Shown here one piece after another: positions 3,995 to 12,843 of a DNA stretch of 52,514 nt (position 1 is its first letter; every line of letters starts with the position of its first letter). The stretch is from Brevinematales bacterium. Lineage in GTDB: Bacteria; Spirochaetota; Brevinematia; Brevinematales; GWF1-51-8. The notes beneath the pieces were generated by a model that saw only the letters and a list, made by a program, of their open reading frames with translations, ran no database searches and was not told the DNA's origin. Made by a program: the position numbers and the translations under genes. The DNA is taken from the NCBI GenBank assembly GCA_020059465.1, contig JAGVBZ010000033.1:1-52514 (forward strand), written 5' to 3'.

Positions 3995-6541
3995 TTATTT
4001 CAGGTTTTCGTTAATCTTTTCCGAAACCCTGCGTAAAAGTTCCATCAGGGTGAAAGGCTTAGGGACGAACTTAAATCCCTGCCGTTCGATACTATCCACT
4101 CTGATAATCGAATCCGCATAACCGCTGGTCAGTATGATCGGGATACCCGGGTATGCAGCGTGTACTTCCTGCATAAACTCCAATCCGTTGCCGTCGGGAA
4201 GCAGGATATCTGAAATAATCAGTTGGATACCGGCTTTATTCTCGTCGAGTTTCTGCCGGGCGGTTTTGATATCTTTGCAGTCGATGACAAGGTACTTATT
4301 CCGCTTCAGTGTTTCGGTAACCAGATTCCTGACGCTGCGTTCATCCTCGATATATAGAATCTGTTCCAGGTTTCCCATCAGTTGAGTGAAATTTTTCGTC
4401 TCCTGAGACAAACTCCCTCCGCTGATAATATCGTCCATCACGGGAAGATACACGGAAAAAACGGAACCTTTGCCCGGTTTGCTCTCGGCGGTGACCCATC
4501 CGTTATGCTGCTTGACAATCCCGTGAACCACGGCAAGCCCCATTCCCGTTCCCTTACCGGCATCCTTGGTGGTAAAAAACGGGTCGAATACTTTTTTCAG
4601 TACGGCCTCTTCCATTCCGATACCCTTATCGGCGACGGAAAAACGGATATAATTTCCGGATAAAGCGAACGGGTTTTTCCTGCAGTACTCGTCATCGATC
4701 CGGACATTATCGGTCGACCATATGATGTTTCCGCCATCGGGCATTGCGTCTTTTGAATTCAGCGTGAGATTGAATACTATCTGCTCGATCTGTGCTTTAT
4801 CCGCGAAGATTCCGCTCAGATGAGGGTGGGGTTTAAAGACGATTTTAATATTTTCGCCGATCAGCGGCTGGATTACCTTCTGCAGTTCATATAGCTGATC
4901 GTTCAGGTTAATATTATAAGGACTGATAATTTGTTTCCGGCTGAATGCGAGAAGCTGAGAGGTAATAGACGTCGCTTTATCCGCCGCATCGATAATGTGC
5001 TTTAAGTATTCCTGAAGCTCGGGGTCTTTTTTCGGACGGTACTGGATCAGATCGGAGTATCCGCGGATAACCGTCAGATAATTCCGGAACTCGTGAGCGA
5101 CGCCTCCGGCAAGTTTGCCGAGCGTATCGATTTTATTCAGCTGATAAAGCTGCACCTGTAAACTTTCCCGTTCTTCTTCATTGATTTTTTGCATCGTGAT
5201 ATCATGGGCCAATCCGGTGACTCCGATAAGCTCGCCGTTCTGGCTGAAAATCGGAGTTAAAAATTTCTCTAAAAACACCGTTTTATCATGGAGCAATATT
5301 TCTTCTTCATACGAAAGCTGTTTCCTGCACTGGAATATTTTTTCCAGATAGTCGTCGAACTGGCTCGCGATTTCGGGAGGGAATACTTCGGAATTTGTTT
5401 TTCCGATAACCTGATCGCGTGTCAGGAGAAAAAATTTCTCGAATGCCTTGTTGATTTCTATAAAACGCCCATCCTTATCCTTCAGCCAGATCATATAGGG
5501 AATATTATCCAGCATCGCTTTCTGATGGGCTTCGGCAGTCTGAAGTTGGGTATTCATTATTTCGGCATTCTGCTGCTGGATAAAGAAATCGTTGATCATA
5601 CGGGAAATATCGCCGAATTCCGATTTTGCTTCGGAAATACTCTTGATTTGATCAGTGCTGCGGGTTTCTAAAGAAATCGAAATTTTTCTGAGGGGGAAAA
5701 CAATTCTATACAGCAGTATAATAAAAAACGCAATATAGGACACTGCGAGTAAAAACCCGACGATGAAAAGCTGGCCGAAGAGTTTATTCCCGTACTCGAT
5801 GACCGCGTTATCGATATAGGTGACTTTTACGTAATGGGAGAGTTTCCATCCGGGCAGCGGGATATTTGCGACCAGTTTCGGGCCGAGGCGCAAAAAATCA
5901 TACGGCTCGTTCGTATACTCCCCATCTATAAATTCGATCGCATCAGCGTAGACGATACTTTTTATATTATCCATCAATACGTCATCCCATTTCTTCGCGA
6001 CAAATAGATACCCTGAGGGAGATGTTATTCTTTCAAAGTCGACGGTGGGATGGATAGTGCTTCCGAAAAGCTGATAGTGCGCGTTTTTATAATGGATGAA
6101 AAGTTCGATATACCTGTTTGTTGAAAAGTACGCTTTCATCTCCCCTTTGAGAAAACCCGCCAGATTCTGTAAGTCCGACGCCTCCGTCTCGTTGCTCAGG
6201 CTTGTGAAATATACCTTCTTTTCGTTGACATCGTAGACCCAGAGGAAATGGATGTTGATCGATTTAAATAATGTATCGAGATTGTACTTCGCCCAATTTG
6301 CATTTTTATTTCTTACAAAATCGTACATTTCGTCCCAGAATGTATAGTCCAGAATGATTTTTTTAATCACATCGGATTTGAGCCGGAGGGCGGTTTGAAA
6401 AAATTCCTGTTTTTCCAATAGATGCTGTTCGGCGAAATAATTGATATTCTCATGGCTGTATTGAATCTGGATAGAAAAAAACACCGTTACGAGCAGAAGA
6501 TGAAAAAACAGATAGACGACAATCCACCATGAAATTTTCAA
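3995..6541 (-). CDS. CHASE4/PAS hybrid sensor histidine kinase with C-terminal receiver
   Basis: 848 aa membrane-bound hybrid kinase. Order: TM1 (about 5-25); extracytoplasmic CHASE4-like sensor (about 45-245, with the family mark [11 protein letters not shown] at 65-75); TM2 (about 257-280); short HAMP-like linker; PAS domain (about 342-450, [20 protein letters not shown]); HisKA with phospho-acceptor His483 in GGVAHEFRN; HATPase_c with N-box [10 protein letters not shown] (about 591), DKGIGM and [11 protein letters not shown]; and a receiver domain (about 727-848) with acidic pair Glu732/Asp733, phospho-acceptor Asp778 in [11 protein letters not shown] and Lys828. The start codon is TTG at 6541 after GGGAG. 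No separate response regulator or HPt protein is nearby, so the output is unknown. A weak promoter (CCGCAA/ATAATA read on the plus strand, 6569-6596) lies upstream. Confidence 0.93.
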
Positions 6542-6646: not shown

Positions 6647-7624
6647 CTATGTACTAATAATGCCCTCGCTTTCCGGGGAATATTTTCCTGATTTTCGCCT
6701 CACCGATTCGCGCGAAGTGTTCGCGTAACAGTACGCGCAGAAGTGCGGGCAGGTATCGTACTGCCCGATATCCTTCGACGGGATACACCGGCAGAACTTC
6801 CGCTGACCCTTATCCTTGAACTCTTTCCCGTTACCCCGGCCGAGGAAGCCCGCAAGCGCGGTGTCATCCGGGGATATCCGTGCGATCAGTTCGTCGTCCA
6901 CACACTTATTATGGCTGATGCCGTATTCGCCGAGGCCGATTTCCTGCGCGCATGACGCGACGGTGAGTCCCCATTCACGGTTCATTTCGGCTATCCTGCG
7001 CGCTGCATGAATCATCGTCTCCCCGTCGAACACCGTATAATTGATGCGTTCGCGCGCGAGGTTACGGACAACCTTCGGGTAACGTCCGATCTCGCAGAAG
7101 CTGAACACGAGCTTCTCGGTATAGGGGTGAATCTTGTCCCCTACTGCGCGGACACGCGCGAGAAGTTCGTCCATTCCGGTGCTTGCGGTAAGGATGAGGG
7201 GGTCGTATCGCCATACCGTGCGCTCCTTACCGTAACGCCGCGAGAGTTCCGTAAACGCATCGATTCTTTCATCGAGCGGGGGAAGTCCGGGTTCGAGTCC
7301 GGTACCGTCGTAGTTGTTGAGCGTGAACTGGAAGTAGAATCCGTACCCCATCTCCGCGACCTTCTCCAGCACGGGTAAGAACGGGCGCGGGTTTTTCGTC
7401 CAGAATACGAAGAACCGGGTTTTCGCGAACGAGACATAGTACGGCGCGCCGTTGAACGGGTTGACCCATTTGACATAGCCCGCGTCGAGACGCCGCCGGA
7501 ACCATTCGCCGTAGAACGCGGGGATATCGGTGGAACGGCTTGCGGTGATGATGAACGGGGTTGATGCTTCGACTTTACGACCTTTCGCATCGGTGATCAG
7601 AGTTTTCTCCCACTTGAACGGCAT
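6647..7624 (-). CDS. DUF1848 family protein with C-terminal Cys cluster
   Basis: 325 aa. The opening (IITASRSTDIPAFYGEWF), the NPFNGAPYYVSFAKTRFFVFWTKNP segment split over residues near 55-78, and the C-terminal CPHFCAYCYAN (Cys292, Cys296, Cys299) match my memory of the DUF1848 family, found in many anaerobes. The CxxxCxxC spacing is that of a radical-SAM [4Fe-4S] site, but here it sits at the C-terminal end rather than the N-terminal end, with further cysteines before it (FCRCIPS, DTC). The reaction is unknown. A ribosome site AGGAAAAAG precedes the ATG. It is transcribed divergently from the hydrogenase operon. Confidence 0.85.
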   Translation of the reverse strand: MPFKWEKTLITDAKGRKVEASTPFIITASRSTDIPAFYGEWFRRRLDAGYVKWVNPFNGAPYYVSFAKTRFFVFWTKNPRPFLPVLEKVAEMGYGFYFQFTLNNYDGTGLEPGLPPLDERIDAFTELSRRYGKERTVWRYDPLILTASTGMDELLARVRAVGDKIHPYTEKLVFSFCEIGRYPKVVRNLARERINYTVFDGETMIHAARRIAEMNREWGLTVASCAQEIGLGEYGISHNKCVDDELIARISPDDTALAGFLGRGNGKEFKDKGQRKFCRCIPSKDIGQYDTCPHFCAYCYANTSRESVRRKSGKYSPESEGIIST

Positions 7625-7766: not shown

Positions 7767-7855
7767 AGTACCCTCAATAAAAAACACGTTCCAGTTAATA
7801 ACCTTTCGTACAGCAATTCATGAGTCCATTATTGCCGGTCTATCAGGAGGATTCC

Positions 7856-8341
7856 ATGTTCAATAAAAAAGAGGTGGAAGTTCAGTTAGCGGACGATCTG
7901 GTGCAGTTTATCGAAAAATGGCGGGATAAACCCGGAAACATGATTATGATCCTGCATAAGGTACAGCAGACCTACGGGTATATTCCCCGCGAGGTCGCGC
8001 TGAAGGTCTCCCGTCTGACGGACATTCCTCTCGCGAAAATTTACGGGGTGGTGACTTTTTATCACTTTTTCAAGCTGAAGAAGCCCGGTAAGCATATGAT
8101 CTCTGTGTGCATGGGCACCGCGTGCTACCTTAAGGGCGGGGAAGACCTGATCCAGACGATCGAGGACACCCTCGGACTTCCGGTGAACGGCACTACCGAC
8201 GATGACGAGTTTTCGCTCGAAGCGGTGCGGTGCGTCGGGTGCTGCGGGCTTGCTCCGGTACTGACCGTGGACGGCGAGGTGTTCGGCAAGGTGGAGAAGG
8301 ATAAGATACCTGAAATTATATCGAAGTTCAAGGGGATTTAG
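7856..8341 (+). CDS. hndA: [FeFe] hydrogenase subunit, NuoE-like [2Fe-2S] protein (HndA/HydC type)
   Basis: 161 aa from the ATG at 7856, which follows AGGAGG; an in-frame ATG at 7820 lacks such a site. The protein is a NuoE/24-kDa-type thioredoxin-like ferredoxin: helical N-terminus (MILHKVQQTYGYIPREVA, then GVVTFYHFF) and four [2Fe-2S] ligands Cys85, Cys90, Cys126 and Cys130 (CMGTAC and CVGCC). In NAD(P)-linked hydrogenases this subunit sits on the flavoprotein subunit and carries electrons to or from the FMN. The stop codon directly abuts the next start. Gene order and sizes fit the Desulfovibrio HndABCD arrangement with one inserted gene. Confidence 0.92.
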   Translation: MFNKKEVEVQLADDLVQFIEKWRDKPGNMIMILHKVQQTYGYIPREVALKVSRLTDIPLAKIYGVVTFYHFFKLKKPGKHMISVCMGTACYLKGGEDLIQTIEDTLGLPVNGTTDDDEFSLEAVRCVGCCGLAPVLTVDGEVFGKVEKDKIPEIISKFKGI

Positions 8342-8875
8342 GTGCATTTCGCCGTTTCCGATTTCCTGTCGGATATCGTGCAGAACTCCATCGAGGCCGG
8401 TTCGGCTTCGGTGATGGTCGAGTACATCGAGGAAAACGGGCGCCTGGAGGTCTATATCTCCGATGACGGGAAGGGGATGGACGCCGAGACTCTCGAACGG
8501 GTCAAAGACCCGTTCTATACCGACGGACATAAGCATGAAAACCGGAAAGTCGGCCTCGGGATACCGTTCCTGATACAGGCGGCGGAGGCCGCGGGCGGCG
8601 GGTTCGATATTAAGTCGGAACTCGGATACGGGACTTCGGTGTACTTTTCGTTCGACCTGACGAATATCGACTGTCCCCCGCAGGGAAACCTGCCGGCGGC
8701 GTTCCTTTCGATGATGCTGTATCCCGGCGATTACGAGCTTGGTATACGGCGGAAGGCGGACGGTCTCGAATACTCGGTGCACCGTTCCGAACTCATCGAT
8801 ACCCTTGGGAATTTGGAAGACGTGGATTCGGTCATTCTCGCGCGACAGTACCTTACCTCGCTGGAAGAGGAATAA
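8342..8875 (+). CDS. Stand-alone HATPase (histidine-kinase-like ATPase) in the hydrogenase operon
   Basis: 177 aa with a GTG start touching the previous stop codon. It contains a GHKL ATP-binding fold: N-box DIVQNSIEAG (Asn15), G1 DDGKGM (41-46), F-box DPFYT (56-60) and G2 GLGIPFL (71-77), ending in GYGTSVYF. There is no His phospho-acceptor or dimerisation domain, so it is not a full sensor kinase. The last 70 residues (from about CPPQGNLPAA) form an extra domain that I do not recognise. Similar small ATPase genes accompany multisubunit [FeFe] hydrogenases in several anaerobes, but their role is not established to my knowledge. Translational coupling suggests it is made in step with the hydrogenase. 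Confidence 0.88.
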   Translation: MHFAVSDFLSDIVQNSIEAGSASVMVEYIEENGRLEVYISDDGKGMDAETLERVKDPFYTDGHKHENRKVGLGIPFLIQAAEAAGGGFDIKSELGYGTSVYFSFDLTNIDCPPQGNLPAAFLSMMLYPGDYELGIRRKADGLEYSVHRSELIDTLGNLEDVDSVILARQYLTSLEEE

Positions 8876-8891: not shown

Positions 8892-9281
8892 ATGGGAAAG
8901 ATGACGCTGGAGGAGCTTCGGAAGCTCCGTGAGGAAAAAAAGAAAGGGATAGAACAAAGGGATGTGAGCGATAAGAATGTTGAAATTATTGTCGGGATGG
9001 GTACATGCGGGATCGCCGCGGGTGCAAAACAGACCCTCGACGCGTTCCTCGACGAACTCAATAAACGCGATATCCACAACGTGATCGTCAAACAGACCGG
9101 ATGCATGGGATTCTGCACCAACGAACCGACTGTCGAGGTAAAGAAGCCCGGAATGCCGGACATTGTTTACGGCCGGGTGGACGACAAGATCGCCCGGAAG
9201 ATAGTGGATCGACATATTATTCAGGACAGGCTTGTCAACGAGCATGTTTTCGATAAACCGTCCACAGACATCATCGGTTAA
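8892..9281 (+). CDS. hndB: Thioredoxin-like [2Fe-2S] ferredoxin subunit (HndB type)
   Basis: 129 aa. A charged, helical N-terminus (LEELRKLREEKKKGIEQRD) precedes a thioredoxin-like ferredoxin domain with Cys39 (GTCGIAAGAKQ), Cys71 and Cys75 (GCMGFC). The usual second ligand of the first Cys pair is absent (Ala/Lys at that place), as I recall for HndB-type proteins, so cluster binding is uncertain. The start follows GAGGAGAGG in the 16-base gap. HndB is the small subunit specific to tetrameric Hnd hydrogenases; it probably forms part of the NAD(P)-side electron path. It is followed 11 bases later by the flavoprotein gene. Confidence 0.9.
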   Translation: MGKMTLEELRKLREEKKKGIEQRDVSDKNVEIIVGMGTCGIAAGAKQTLDAFLDELNKRDIHNVIVKQTGCMGFCTNEPTVEVKKPGMPDIVYGRVDDKIARKIVDRHIIQDRLVNEHVFDKPSTDIIG

Positions 9282-9292
9282 CGGGGGTAAAT

Positions 9293-11080
9293 ATGGCATA
9301 TAAGAATTATATATTAGTCTGCGGCGGGACAGGATGCGAATCCTCGAAAGCGAACGATATTTTCGAGAACCTGAAGAAGGAAGTGACCGCCGCCAATCTG
9401 GACGCAGACGTTCAGGTTGTCAAGACCGGGTGTTTCGGTTTCTGCGAACAGGGGCCGATCGTGAAAATTCTCCCGGATGATGCGTTTTATGTACAGGTCA
9501 AGCCCGAGGATGCGTCGCGAATCGTTTCGGAACATATCATCAAGGGCCGCCCTGTTGCGGAACTCCTCTACGATGCCGGAAAGGATAAAGGGCGTGTGCG
9601 TCTGAAAGACGTACCGTTCTACCAGAAACAATACCGCATCGTCCTACGGAACTGCGGAGTCATCGATCCCAGAAATATAGATGAATATATCGCGCGCGAC
9701 GGATATGCCGCGCTTGAAAAAGTTCTGTTTTCCATGAAACCTGACGATGTGATCGATGAGTTGAAAAAAGCCGGGCTGAGGGGACGAGGCGGCGCCGGCT
9801 TCCCGACATGGCAGAAATGGCTCTTTTCCCAGAAAGTCCAATCCGATGTGAAATATATTATCTGTAACGCCGACGAGGGAGACCCGGGCGCGTATATGGA
9901 TAGAAGCGTGCTCGAGGGAGACCCTCATTCGGTGATCGAGGCGATGATGATCGCCGGGCGCACGGTCGGCGCGGCACAGGGATATATCTATATCCGCGCG
10001 GAGTATCCCCTTGCGATATCCAATCTTGAAAAGGCGATAGACGACGCCCGCGAATACGGGCTGATCGGTAAGGATATCCTCGGCAGCGGGTTCGATTTCG
10101 ATATCGAGATACGTCTCGGCGCAGGCGCGTTTGTCTGCGGCGAGGAAACCGCGCTGATGGCGTCTATCGAGGGACAGCGGGGTATGCCCCGTCCCCGTCC
10201 GCCGTTCCCGTCAGTCAAGGGACTCTGGGGTAAGCCGACGGTCATCAATAACGTAGAAACTCTCGCGAATATCGCGGTAATCATACTTAAGGGAGGCGAA
10301 TGGTACGGTTCTATCGGCACCGCGACCTCCAAGGGTACGAAGGTGTTCGCGCTCACGGGAAAAATAAGTAATTCGGGTTTAATAGAAGTGCCGATGGGTA
10401 CGACGCTGCGCGAGATCATTTTCGATATCGGCGGCGGTATCCGCAACGGCAAGAAGTTCAAGTCCGCGCAGACCGGAGGCCCGTCGGGCGGTATGATCAC
10501 CGAGGAATACCTCGATACCCCGATCGACTACGAAAATCTTCAAGTACTCGGATCCATCATGGGTTCGGGCGGATTGATCGTAACCGACGAGGACGATTGT
10601 ATGGTCGACGTCGCGAAGTTCTACCTCGGCTTTACAGTGGACGAGTCCTGTGGAAAGTGTTCCCCGTGCCGGATCGGCGGAAGGCAGATGTACGACCTGC
10701 TGGAAAAGATCACGAAGGGCAGCGGCGAGGAAAGTTATGTCGAACAGCTCGAACGGATCGGGCACGCGATGAAACGCGCGTCGCTGTGCGGGCTCGGCCA
10801 GAGCGCTCCCAACCCGGTCGTGTCCACATTGAAGTACTTCCGTGAGGAATACCTCGAGCATATCAACGAGAAGAAATGCCGTTCCGGGAAATGTAAGGAT
10901 CTTCTCAAATTTACGATACTGCCGGATAAATGTATCGGGTGTACGCTTTGCGCGCGTGTCTGTCCCGTGAACGCGATCACCGGCGAAAAGCGGCAGCCCC
11001 ACCTGATCAACCAGGAACTCTGTATCAAGTGCGGCGAATGTTACACTAGCTGTAAGTTCAGCGCGATTACCAGAAGCTAA
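9293..11080 (+). CDS. hndC: [FeFe] hydrogenase flavoprotein subunit, NuoF-like (HndC/HydB type)
   Basis: 595 aa flavoprotein that binds FMN and NAD(P) and passes electrons through several Fe-S clusters. Order: thioredoxin-like [2Fe-2S] domain (Cys10, Cys15, Cys47, Cys51); NuoF core with FMN/NADH site GLRGRGGAGFPTW (161-173) and NADEGDPGAYMDR (192-204); SLBB-like region; N3-type [4Fe-4S] ligands Cys453, Cys456, Cys459 and Cys499; and a C-terminal 2x[4Fe-4S] ferredoxin (Cys547/550/553/557 and Cys577/580/583/587). This full set is the pattern of HydB/HndC subunits of electron-bifurcating hydrogenases, longer than NuoF of complex I. It lies between hndB and the catalytic subunit in one operon. 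Confidence 0.96.
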   Translation: MAYKNYILVCGGTGCESSKANDIFENLKKEVTAANLDADVQVVKTGCFGFCEQGPIVKILPDDAFYVQVKPEDASRIVSEHIIKGRPVAELLYDAGKDKGRVRLKDVPFYQKQYRIVLRNCGVIDPRNIDEYIARDGYAALEKVLFSMKPDDVIDELKKAGLRGRGGAGFPTWQKWLFSQKVQSDVKYIICNADEGDPGAYMDRSVLEGDPHSVIEAMMIAGRTVGAAQGYIYIRAEYPLAISNLEKAIDDAREYGLIGKDILGSGFDFDIEIRLGAGAFVCGEETALMASIEGQRGMPRPRPPFPSVKGLWGKPTVINNVETLANIAVIILKGGEWYGSIGTATSKGTKVFALTGKISNSGLIEVPMGTTLREIIFDIGGGIRNGKKFKSAQTGGPSGGMITEEYLDTPIDYENLQVLGSIMGSGGLIVTDEDDCMVDVAKFYLGFTVDESCGKCSPCRIGGRQMYDLLEKITKGSGEESYVEQLERIGHAMKRASLCGLGQSAPNPVVSTLKYFREEYLEHINEKKCRSGKCKDLLKFTILPDKCIGCTLCARVCPVNAITGEKRQPHLINQELCIKCGECYTSCKFSAITRS

Positions 11081-11091
11081 GGAGGACGAAA

Positions 11092-12843
11092 GTGGCTAAG
11101 GTTAATATAAAGATAAACGGTATGCCCTTTGCGATGGAAGACGGGCTGACGATACTCGAAGCCGCGCGGAATGTGCAGATCAAGGTTCCGACGCTGTGCT
11201 ATCATCCCGACCTTCCGGCATGGGCGGCCTGCGGGCTTTGTGTGGTTAAGCTGGAAAAGTCCCCGAAGATGTTCCGGGCTTGCTCTACCCCGATAGAAGA
11301 GGGAATGAGTATTACGACGCATGACCCGGAAATTGTCGAGGTGCGGCGGACTGTGCTCGAACTCATGCTGTCCGACCATCCCAACGACTGTCTGCGGTGT
11401 CCCCGCAACGGGAACTGCGAATTCCAGAAAATCGCGGCGGACTTCGGTATCCGCGAGGTCGAGTTCGCTCAGGTCACGAAAGATATCCCGATCGATAAAA
11501 GTACCGCGTCCATAGAACTCCACCCGGAGAAGTGTATCAAGTGCGGACGCTGTGTGAATGTCTGTCAGGAAATGCAGAGCGTGTACGCGATAGAATTCCT
11601 CGGACGCGGGTTTTCGACCCGTATCGCCCCCGCTGCCGACGTACAGCTTGCCGACAGCCCGTGCGTGAAATGCGGACAGTGTTCGGCGCATTGTCCGGTA
11701 GGCGCGATCTACGAGAAGGACGAGACCAACCGCGTATGGAAAGCCCTGCTTGCGCCGGATATGCATTGCGTGGTGCAGATCGCTCCCGCGGTGCGTGTCG
11801 CTATCGGCGAATCGTTCGGGTACGAGATCGGAACTCTACTGACCGGGAAACTTTATGCCGCTCTCCGCAGGATCGGATTCGACGCGATATTCGATACGAA
11901 TTTCGGCGCCGACCTGACGATTATGGAGGAGGGTTCCGAGTTCGTCGAACTGTATACCAAGAAAAAGAACGAGCTGCCCCTGATCACGTCGTGCTGTCCG
12001 TCATGGGTCGATTTTCTCGAGAAGTTCGACTCGGACCTCATCCCGCACTTCTCGTCGGCGAAATCCCCGCACGAGATGGTGGGTGTGCTCGCAAAAACAT
12101 ATTACGCCGAAAAAATGGGCATCGACCCCGCGAAAATTTTCATGGTCTCGATTATGCCTTGTACCGCTAAGAAATACGAGATCACCCGCACGGACGAGAT
12201 GTTTTCGAGCGGGCATCAGGACGTAGACGTATCGCTGACCACCCGCGAACTGACGAGAATGATCAAGGCGGCGGGTATCGATATCGAGAACCTGCCGGAC
12301 GATAAGGCCGACAGCATCCTCGGTGAATACGCCGGCGCGGGTACATTGTTCGGCGCGACCGGCGGTGTGATGGAGGCCGGCCTACGAACAGCATACAGGC
12401 TGATAACAGGCCGGAACCTCGGGCATGTGGAATTCGAACAGGTGCGCGGGCTGGACGGAATCAAGACCGCGACTATAGATATCGACGGGAACGACGTCAG
12501 GGTGGCGGTCGCTCACGGCCTTTCCAATGTCCAGACTCTGCTGGAAGAAGTACGTCAGGCGAAAAAGAACGGAGAAAAGCCGCCTTACGATTTCATCGAA
12601 GTGATGGCGTGCCGCGGCGGGTGTGTTGGCGGCGGCGGACAGCCGTACGGCGCCAACGACCGTGTACGGCGTCTCCGCGCGAAGGGAATTTATCATGACG
12701 ACGAGGGCAGCAAGATACGTTGTTCGCACGATAACCCGGAAATCCAGAACCTTTACAAGGAGTTTCTGGGCGAACCGCTCAGCGAAAAATCGCACCATCT
12801 CCTGCATACGACCTACAAACCTAGGCCGTTATATAATAAGTAA
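11092..12843 (+). CDS. hndD: [FeFe] hydrogenase catalytic subunit (HndD/HydA type)
   Basis: 583 aa, GTG start after GGAGG. N-terminal [2Fe-2S] domain (Cys36, Cys47, Cys50, Cys64), a His-ligated cluster motif (His96, Cys100, Cys103, Cys109), two [4Fe-4S] clusters (Cys148/151/154/158 and Cys191/194/197/201), and the H-cluster domain with signatures L1 TSCCPSW (299-305), L2 MPCTAKK (355-361) and L3 MACRGGCVGGGGQP (505-518). Cys301 would be the proton-transfer Cys; Cys302, Cys357, Cys507 and Cys511 the H-cluster ligands. The C-terminal small-subunit segment ends in LLHTTYKPRPLY. With its partners it should couple H2 and NAD(P)H, probably with ferredoxin (bifurcation), inferred from the family. 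The maturases HydE, HydF and HydG are not in this window. Confidence 0.97.
   Translation: MAKVNIKINGMPFAMEDGLTILEAARNVQIKVPTLCYHPDLPAWAACGLCVVKLEKSPKMFRACSTPIEEGMSITTHDPEIVEVRRTVLELMLSDHPNDCLRCPRNGNCEFQKIAADFGIREVEFAQVTKDIPIDKSTASIELHPEKCIKCGRCVNVCQEMQSVYAIEFLGRGFSTRIAPAADVQLADSPCVKCGQCSAHCPVGAIYEKDETNRVWKALLAPDMHCVVQIAPAVRVAIGESFGYEIGTLLTGKLYAALRRIGFDAIFDTNFGADLTIMEEGSEFVELYTKKKNELPLITSCCPSWVDFLEKFDSDLIPHFSSAKSPHEMVGVLAKTYYAEKMGIDPAKIFMVSIMPCTAKKYEITRTDEMFSSGHQDVDVSLTTRELTRMIKAAGIDIENLPDDKADSILGEYAGAGTLFGATGGVMEAGLRTAYRLITGRNLGHVEFEQVRGLDGIKTATIDIDGNDVRVAVAHGLSNVQTLLEEVRQAKKNGEKPPYDFIEVMACRGGCVGGGGQPYGANDRVRRLRAKGIYHDDEGSKIRCSHDNPEIQNLYKEFLGEPLSEKSHHLLHTTYKPRPLYNK

Follow-up and report, generated by a model that had tools for sequence, protein, structure and literature searches.

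A HydE-type GHKL ATPase encoded within hydrogenase operons is a candidate regulator of the diaphorase core of electron-bifurcating enzymes

Our analysis shows that a small GHKL ATPase, encoded between two partner-subunit genes of an [FeFe]-hydrogenase operon in a Brevinematales bacterium, is a real and widely conserved companion of electron-bifurcating hydrogenases. Its identity, its synteny, its intact ATP site, and its co-occurrence with particular operon genes were all established here, together with its fold class, the latter in a model. Genes of this kind are already in print as hydE in hydrogenase operons. We propose, with a probability of about 0.48, that the HydE-type accessory ATPase is not a subunit but an ATP switch or kinase that acts on the diaphorase core of the enzyme. 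A regulatory role is the most likely one, because most relatives in Bacillota belong to a sensing block that comprises DRTGG, RsbW-like, hydrogenase-like, and PHP proteins.

The window, i.e., the entire 52,514-nucleotide stretch of DNA analyzed here, carries the operon on its forward (+) strand. The gene hndA (hydC; positions 7820 to 8341), which encodes a NuoE-type thioredoxin-like [2Fe-2S] subunit (PF01257, E = 2.6e-47), is followed by the ATPase gene (8342 to 8875; 177 amino acids, GTG start, and TAA stop) and then by hndB (hydD; 8892 to 9281), whose product is a small thioredoxin-like subunit with only three cysteines, as counted from the sequence, and with weak profile support (19 bits for PF01257 and 38 bits for NF041612). 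Farther downstream lie hndC (hydB; 9293 to 11080), encoding a NuoF-type FMN/NAD subunit (PF01512, PF10589, PF01257, and Fer4) with a thioredoxin-like N-terminal domain and a 2[4Fe-4S] C-terminal domain, and hndD (hydA; 11092 to 12843), encoding the catalytic subunit of a group A6 [FeFe]-hydrogenase (NF040763, 811 bits against a cut-off of 765). Given that the hndA stop codon (TAG, 8339 to 8341) abuts the GTG of the ATPase gene without a gap, and that a purine-rich stretch resembling a ribosome-binding site (aagggga) can be read a few nucleotides 5' of this GTG, inside the end of hndA, translational coupling of the two genes is likely. An earlier note on this DNA had described a 177-residue GHKL ATPase between hndA and hndB, coupled to the former by the stop/GTG junction and followed by the latter, and the open reading frame, the HATPase_c match, and the hndB start at 8892 all bear this out. 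Compared with two relatives from the same genus, the ATPase gene displays a dN/dS of ~0.2, i.e., it is under purifying selection.

Several features around the gene deserve mention in their own right. No good ribosome-binding site precedes the hndA start at 7820, and the ATG at 7856, just downstream of AGGAGGA, is the likelier start. The three cysteines of the window HndB are one short of those in a classical four-cysteine [2Fe-2S] thioredoxin-like protein, and the HndB stretch of locus L051 contains none. Upstream of the operon and divergent from it, a large hybrid sensor kinase with a receiver domain can be read by eye (3995 to 6541), and a DUF1848 gene (6647 to 7624) separates it from the hnd genes.

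Pfam HATPase_c matches residues 9 to 107 of the ATPase (E = 1.7e-14, 54.6 bits against a cut-off of 26.4), and the N, G1 (DxGxG), and G2 (GxG) motifs of the GHKL superfamily are all present. On the + strand, the codon of the N-box asparagine, N15, occupies 8384 to 8386, and that of D11, the acid four residues before it that corresponds to the glutamate position of MutL and GyrB, occupies 8372 to 8374. The G1 box (D41-D-G-K-G-M46) follows at 8462 to 8479, and the F box DPFYT (D56-P57-F58-Y59-T60), a short ATP lid, and the G2 box GLGIPF lie at 8507 to 8569; the lid carries K64-H65 and R68, and G2 reads G71-L-G73. We assessed these positions in 196 distinct homologous domains, namely those scoring above 60 bits, a threshold that leaves out strongly degenerate copies, which were inspected separately. 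N15, D41, G43, G45, P57, G71, G73, and D110 were invariant (196/196), position 11 was acidic throughout (D in 191 and E in 5), and position 68 was R in 191 and K in 5. The residues K64 and H65 occurred in only 109 and 110 of the 196, respectively, and H65 is therefore no general phospho-acceptor. In addition, the ATP site was kept in 28 of 28 aligned sequences. The N, G1, F, and G2 boxes that the earlier note had called intact are thus all present in the window protein, and the degeneracy across the family that it had considered was not observed among the homologues above the threshold (intact in 196/196). Its statement that there is no segment with a phospho-acceptor histidine also stands, since the reading frame begins 14 residues before N15 and no HisKA match was obtained at E up to 0.1.

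In GyrB, MutL, Hsp90, SpoIIAB, and the mitochondrial dehydrogenase kinases, an acid at this position serves as the general base. Within the window's own genome, MutL and GyrB carry E at the corresponding position, and all seven histidine kinases carry N. The acid in the window protein suits a kinase as well as an assembly ATPase and speaks against a histidine-kinase core; the window protein has no DHp/HisKA segment, and the asparagine that histidine kinases have four residues before the N-box asparagine occurs in none of the 196 homologues (D/E in 196/196).

An AlphaFold2 model built on 28 sequences (pLDDT 90.7) was used to assess the fold. Foldseek gave its best E-values to histidine-kinase cores, and its best query-normalized TM-score among the 50 matches listed to Bacillus subtilis MutL (0.61). 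In the VIA comparison, all 50 matches listed were MutL/PMS2, GyrB/ParE, or TopoVI-B domains (Z 12.3 to 14.1, with 123 to 155 residues aligned), B. subtilis MutL among them (Z 14.1, rmsd 3.6, 148 residues aligned), and the alignment spanned model residues 1 to 166, ending at 169 at most. No RsbW or SpoIIAB chain was among the 50 fold matches listed, which excludes nothing. These results bear on residues 108 to 177 (8663 to 8872, + strand), which carry the signature I-D110-x-P-P-x-G115 (D110 in 196/196, G115 in 195/196) and had been taken in the earlier note for an extra 70-residue C-terminal domain. The stretch is real sequence and has no Pfam family in any of 28 members (28/28); the reading as a separate domain was dropped because of this absence and because the fold comparison covers most of the stretch. 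According to the model, residues 108 to 166 mostly complete one extended MutL/GyrB-like ATPase domain; the comparison was made with the whole protein and barely covers residues 167 to 177.

The window ATPase thus resembles MutL, PMS2, GyrB, ParE, and TopoVI-B in the predicted fold of the whole domain and in the acid at N box minus 4. It differs from them in that it ends at residue 177 without a transducer or DNA-related domain, is 11 to 18% identical to them, and has a short, distinct ATP lid. It shares with RsbW and SpoIIAB the format of a small stand-alone GHKL ATPase and an acid before the N box, which we read in the RsbW-like protein of locus L056 and which SpoIIAB also has. However, it misses the cut-offs of the respective models (14.2 bits against 27.4 for PF13581, 30.3 against 135 for TIGR01925, and 26.4 against 145 for NF003144), fits HATPase_c and HATPase_c_3 better than HATPase_c_2 (E = 0.046), and has 70 additional residues; moreover, a distinct RsbW-like protein is encoded in the same gene block as its relatives in Bacillota.

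The closest described counterparts occupy the same slot in another phylum, namely HydE of Acetobacterium woodii (Awo_c27000; not the H-cluster maturase of the same name) and Tte0891 of Thermoanaerobacter (Caldanaerobacter) subterraneus, both with the order hydC - hydE/tte0891 - hydD - hydB - hydA; their putative homology to the window ATPase is judged from gene order and annotation. The order in A. woodii follows from the locus numbers in a table of PMC10472528. According to the available parts of PMC3315566, HydE does not belong to the A. woodii enzyme; an "assembly or signalling" role was suggested for it in 2012. According to the available parts of PMC4694547, expression of hydC-tte0891-hydD-hydB-hydA in Escherichia coli yielded a four-subunit HydABCD complex of 325 kDa, in which mass fingerprints revealed HydA, HydB, and HydD, and the tag revealed HydC; a tte0891 deletion was made for labelling, and we found no activity data for it in those parts. 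In Clostridium thermocellum, the available portion of PMC3990059 places Cthe_0339, annotated as a histidine kinase, between the hydrogenase genes Cthe_0338 and Cthe_0340. The available portions of PMC8407422, PMC9431212, PMC6288185, PMC5113046, PMC3551663, PMC13040438, PMC7325909, PMC5886521, PMC9499530, and PMC11837493 contain nothing on a role of the ATPase. In the openly readable literature, we found no description of a tested function for the ATPase or of a DRTGG/RsbW/PHP block beside a hydrogenase. The earlier note knew of no assigned role; this holds for tested functions, but a suggestion has existed since 2012 for HydE.

Homologues of the ATPase were found at E <= 1e-10 in 57 of 296 Spirochaetota genomes. 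The order HndA-ATPase-HndB-HndC was observed in all 30 loci compared (29 relatives and the window). Among the 80 named loci, which are the best 80 of 422 relatives and therefore biased toward close relatives, HndA lies immediately upstream of the ATPase in 79, the remaining one ending at a contig edge, and all five components (HndA, ATPase, HndB, HndC, and HndD) were seen in 66. Represented among these 80 loci are spirochaetes, Margulisiibacteriota, Chitinispirillales, Kiritimatiellae, Spartobacteria, and an Oscillospiraceae record. Homologues residing mostly away from hydrogenases, as the earlier note had considered, were not what we found: the ATPase is directly upstream of a stand-alone HndB in 47 of 57 Spirochaetota loci, and 46 of 60 Bacillota loci have HndA, HndB, or both next to it.

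Which part of the operon does the ATPase accompany? A group A6 hydrogenase was detected at E <= 1e-150 in 127 of the 296 Spirochaetota genomes, and 48 of these 127 have the ATPase, while 79 lack a match. When the A6 genomes are sorted by the presence of a stand-alone HndB, the ATPase occurs in 48 of the 67 with HndB and in 0 of the 60 without it (Fisher 9e-20, which ignores relatedness); the HndB list comprised 78 rows, after frames longer than 300 amino acids (HndC N-termini) and one 284-residue row (G047, 52 bits) were dropped. A phylogeny-aware test found only three independent supported pairs (~2.2 in the same direction and 0 in the opposite one) and was not significant; for this test, L061, L062, and L122 were set by hand as HndB-present, the gene having been seen there earlier, and four long-branch loci (L201, L202, L214, and L216) were left out. 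Another A6 operon of the window's genome (L197; G000:C25:50500-62500) has the order HndA-HndC-HndD and contains neither HndB nor the ATPase. The ATPase is thus not required for A6 hydrogenases as such, because 79 of the 127 A6 genomes and L197 do without it. L197 also outscores the A6 hydrogenase of the window and serves as a built-in control.

The association with HndB has exceptions on both sides. Operons in which HndA adjoins HndB without the ATPase were found at L215, L217 to L219, L225 to L230, L236, and L199, and four operons in Bacillota have the ATPase without HndB. Three loci (L051 to L053) show HndA-ATPase-HndB-HndC with no hydrogenase gene within ~12 kb, and in four others (L177, L186, L190, and L054) the catalytic gene downstream is a formate dehydrogenase. 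In genome G292, HndA and HndB are direct neighbors in the Hnd operon (L219), which lacks the ATPase, and the ATPase (L047) lies beside a 506-amino-acid [FeFe]-hydrogenase of another type. Collectively, the loci without a hydrogenase gene, those with formate dehydrogenase, and G292 point to the NuoE/HndB/NuoF core, rather than the hydrogenase, as the usual partner of the ATPase, and to an action that may be exerted in trans. We also compared HndA, HndC, and HndD column by column between operons with the ATPase (n = 128; 113 for HndD) and without it (n = 15). No column of HndA or HndD separates the two sets, and none of the four that do so in HndC is Ser, Thr, or Tyr; the comparison therefore suggests no phosphorylation site. 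A single-sequence structure prediction for HndB reached a pLDDT of 44 and was set aside.

The gene neighborhoods in Bacillota, the phylum of the Oscillospiraceae record, offer a further view. At E <= 1e-20, the ATPase was found in 125 of 299 genomes of this phylum, and we examined wide flanks of 60 loci drawn from 126 rows (20 hand-picked and 40 taken by skipping about every third entry). The arrangement was HndA-ATPase-HndB in 38 loci, HndA-ATPase-HndC in 4, and PHP-ATPase-HndB in 4; in these 46 loci, the ATPase mostly follows a block in the order DRTGG, RsbW-like, hydrogenase-like, and PHP. In the other 14, the ATPase is part of the sensing block, and no Hnd gene in the same direction follows it. 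The neighbors in the 60 loci include DRTGG proteins (53), RsbW-like ATPases (49), hydrogenase-like Fe-S proteins (48), and separate PHP proteins (46), and Pfam searches on example proteins confirmed the PHP, DRTGG, HATPase, and Fe_hyd_lg_C domains. We checked three RsbW-like proteins: those of L057 and L059, which are longer, have two CBS domains, whereas the shorter one of L056 has none. Moreover, PHP and ATPase occur in a single reading frame of 425 to 435 amino acids at L188 (6064 to 7338, domains confirmed by Pfam), L189, and L192; these fusions contain the same ATPase family behind an N-terminal PHP phosphoesterase, a domain that the window protein lacks.

The hydrogenase-like protein (Fer4, Fe_hyd_lg_C, and PF04060) is conserved and is encoded repeatedly between the genes of the RsbW-like and PHP proteins, at L056 (4237 to 5508) and in Bacillota loci. 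In the L056 protein, a cluster-ligand motif reads TNCSA where TSCCP is usual, and hence this protein may serve as a sensor that lacks a normal H-cluster.

In Spirochaetota, the sensing block is mostly not adjacent to the ATPase operon. It is, however, at L059, where the ATPase shares 58% identity with that of the window and DRTGG-CBS/RsbW-DRTGG-PHP immediately precedes HndA-ATPase-HndB-HndC on the same strand. Of the 80 named loci (best 80 of 422), 10 have at least one block gene within 6 kb. Our block search in the window's genome covered DRTGG and the hydrogenase-like sensor, and the ATPase was the only member of the block found: there was no DRTGG match, and the sensor query returned only generic hydrogenase-like matches with no HydS orthologue. 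A multi-protein switch is therefore not readable from that genome.

Divergent copies of the ATPase were seen in the spirochaete family f49, in which six loci (L207, L210, and L221 to L224) carry them in the slot between hndA and hndB. Inspection of seven loci revealed a readable divergent frame in six, the exception being L220. These copies keep the N and the acid but mostly lack the second G1 glycine and the lid, and the ATPase apparently persists in f49 although it no longer handles ATP normally. This argues that catalysis is not needed everywhere. At L210, the HndB stretch adjoining the degenerate ATPase has no cysteine.

Among the roles offered in the earlier note (serine kinase, assembly ATPase, or subunit), the kinase and the assembly ATPase both remain. 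The latter, an ATP-driven clamp or chaperone that would help HndA, HndB, and HndC to fold, receive their clusters, or join, and would leave the finished complex, is the main rival of a switch or kinase and only a little less probable. The slot fixed between two partner-subunit genes (30/30 loci) fits it equally well, as do the MutL/GyrB-like fold of the model, the tracking of the diaphorase core and not of the catalytic subunit, and the absence of the ATPase from purified complexes of two relatives, as far as the available parts of PMC3315566 and PMC4694547 describe them. On the other hand, A6 operons without the ATPase are common (79 of 127 genomes), the second operon of the window's genome included, and some of the operons that do without it have HndB, as listed above. 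The 14 Bacillota loci with the ATPase in the sensing block and no co-directional Hnd gene downstream, and the persistence of degenerate copies in f49, also argue against it. The subunit is the role that did not hold up well: a regulatory subunit that is loosely attached to the mature complex and itself senses ATP/ADP would be consistent with the operon position and with the ATP site intact in 196/196, yet the available parts of the same two papers state that HydE is not part of the A. woodii enzyme and describe four subunits, without Tte0891, for the HydC-pulled Thermoanaerobacter complex, even though its gene was in the expression operon. We regard this reading as improbable.

The annotation of relatives as "histidine kinase" could suggest a detached two-component kinase core that phosphorylates a histidine, and both the best Pfam model (HATPase_c) and the top PDB sequence matches, which are histidine kinases such as KinB, agree with it. 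We nevertheless judge it very improbable, in view of the missing DHp segment, the acid at N box minus 4 in 196/196 against Asn in 7/7 kinases of the same genome, and the 123 to 155 residues over which the model aligns with MutL/GyrB-class domains in all 50 matches listed. Least credible to us is that the gene is a decaying passenger that lost its function in the window's genome once the sensing block was gone; the lack of a DRTGG match there and the degenerate copies in f49 would fit, but a dN/dS of ~0.2, a complete ATP site, and the retention of the same slot across phyla do not.

We rank the ATP switch or kinase first because of the sensing proteins that accompany the ATPase, the fusion to PHP, the block loci without co-directional Hnd genes, and the many A6 operons that lack it. 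By analogy with A. woodii and Thermoanaerobacter, as described in the papers on these relatives, such a switch would not be a stable subunit. It would bind ATP in the single MutL/GyrB-like domain predicted by the model and, through the acid before the N box, either hydrolyze it or transfer its phosphate, so that the protein may be a kinase or a pure ATPase. Its target would probably be the NAD-binding diaphorase core (NuoE-like HndA, HndB, and NuoF-like HndC) rather than the hydrogen-active site, and the core would be switched by the energy or redox state, a direction of regulation that we infer. More speculatively, and at odds that we put well below those of the switch or kinase as such, the ATPase could be the kinase and PHP the phosphatase of a hitherto undescribed energy-charge/redox switch that also involves DRTGG, the hydrogenase-like Fe-S sensor, and the RsbW-like protein, which in some genomes carries CBS domains, and that would turn electron-bifurcating hydrogenases and formate dehydrogenases on or off through a reversible modification of the diaphorase core.

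The way in which anaerobes dispose of reducing power depends on electron-bifurcating hydrogenases, and little is known of how the direction of these enzymes is controlled. A conserved ATPase that is tied to the NAD-binding core, lies near nucleotide and redox sensors, and is sometimes fused to PHP is a testable candidate for such control. Alternatively, the ATPase is a candidate for a missing assembly step, which would be relevant when bifurcating hydrogenases are built in other hosts.
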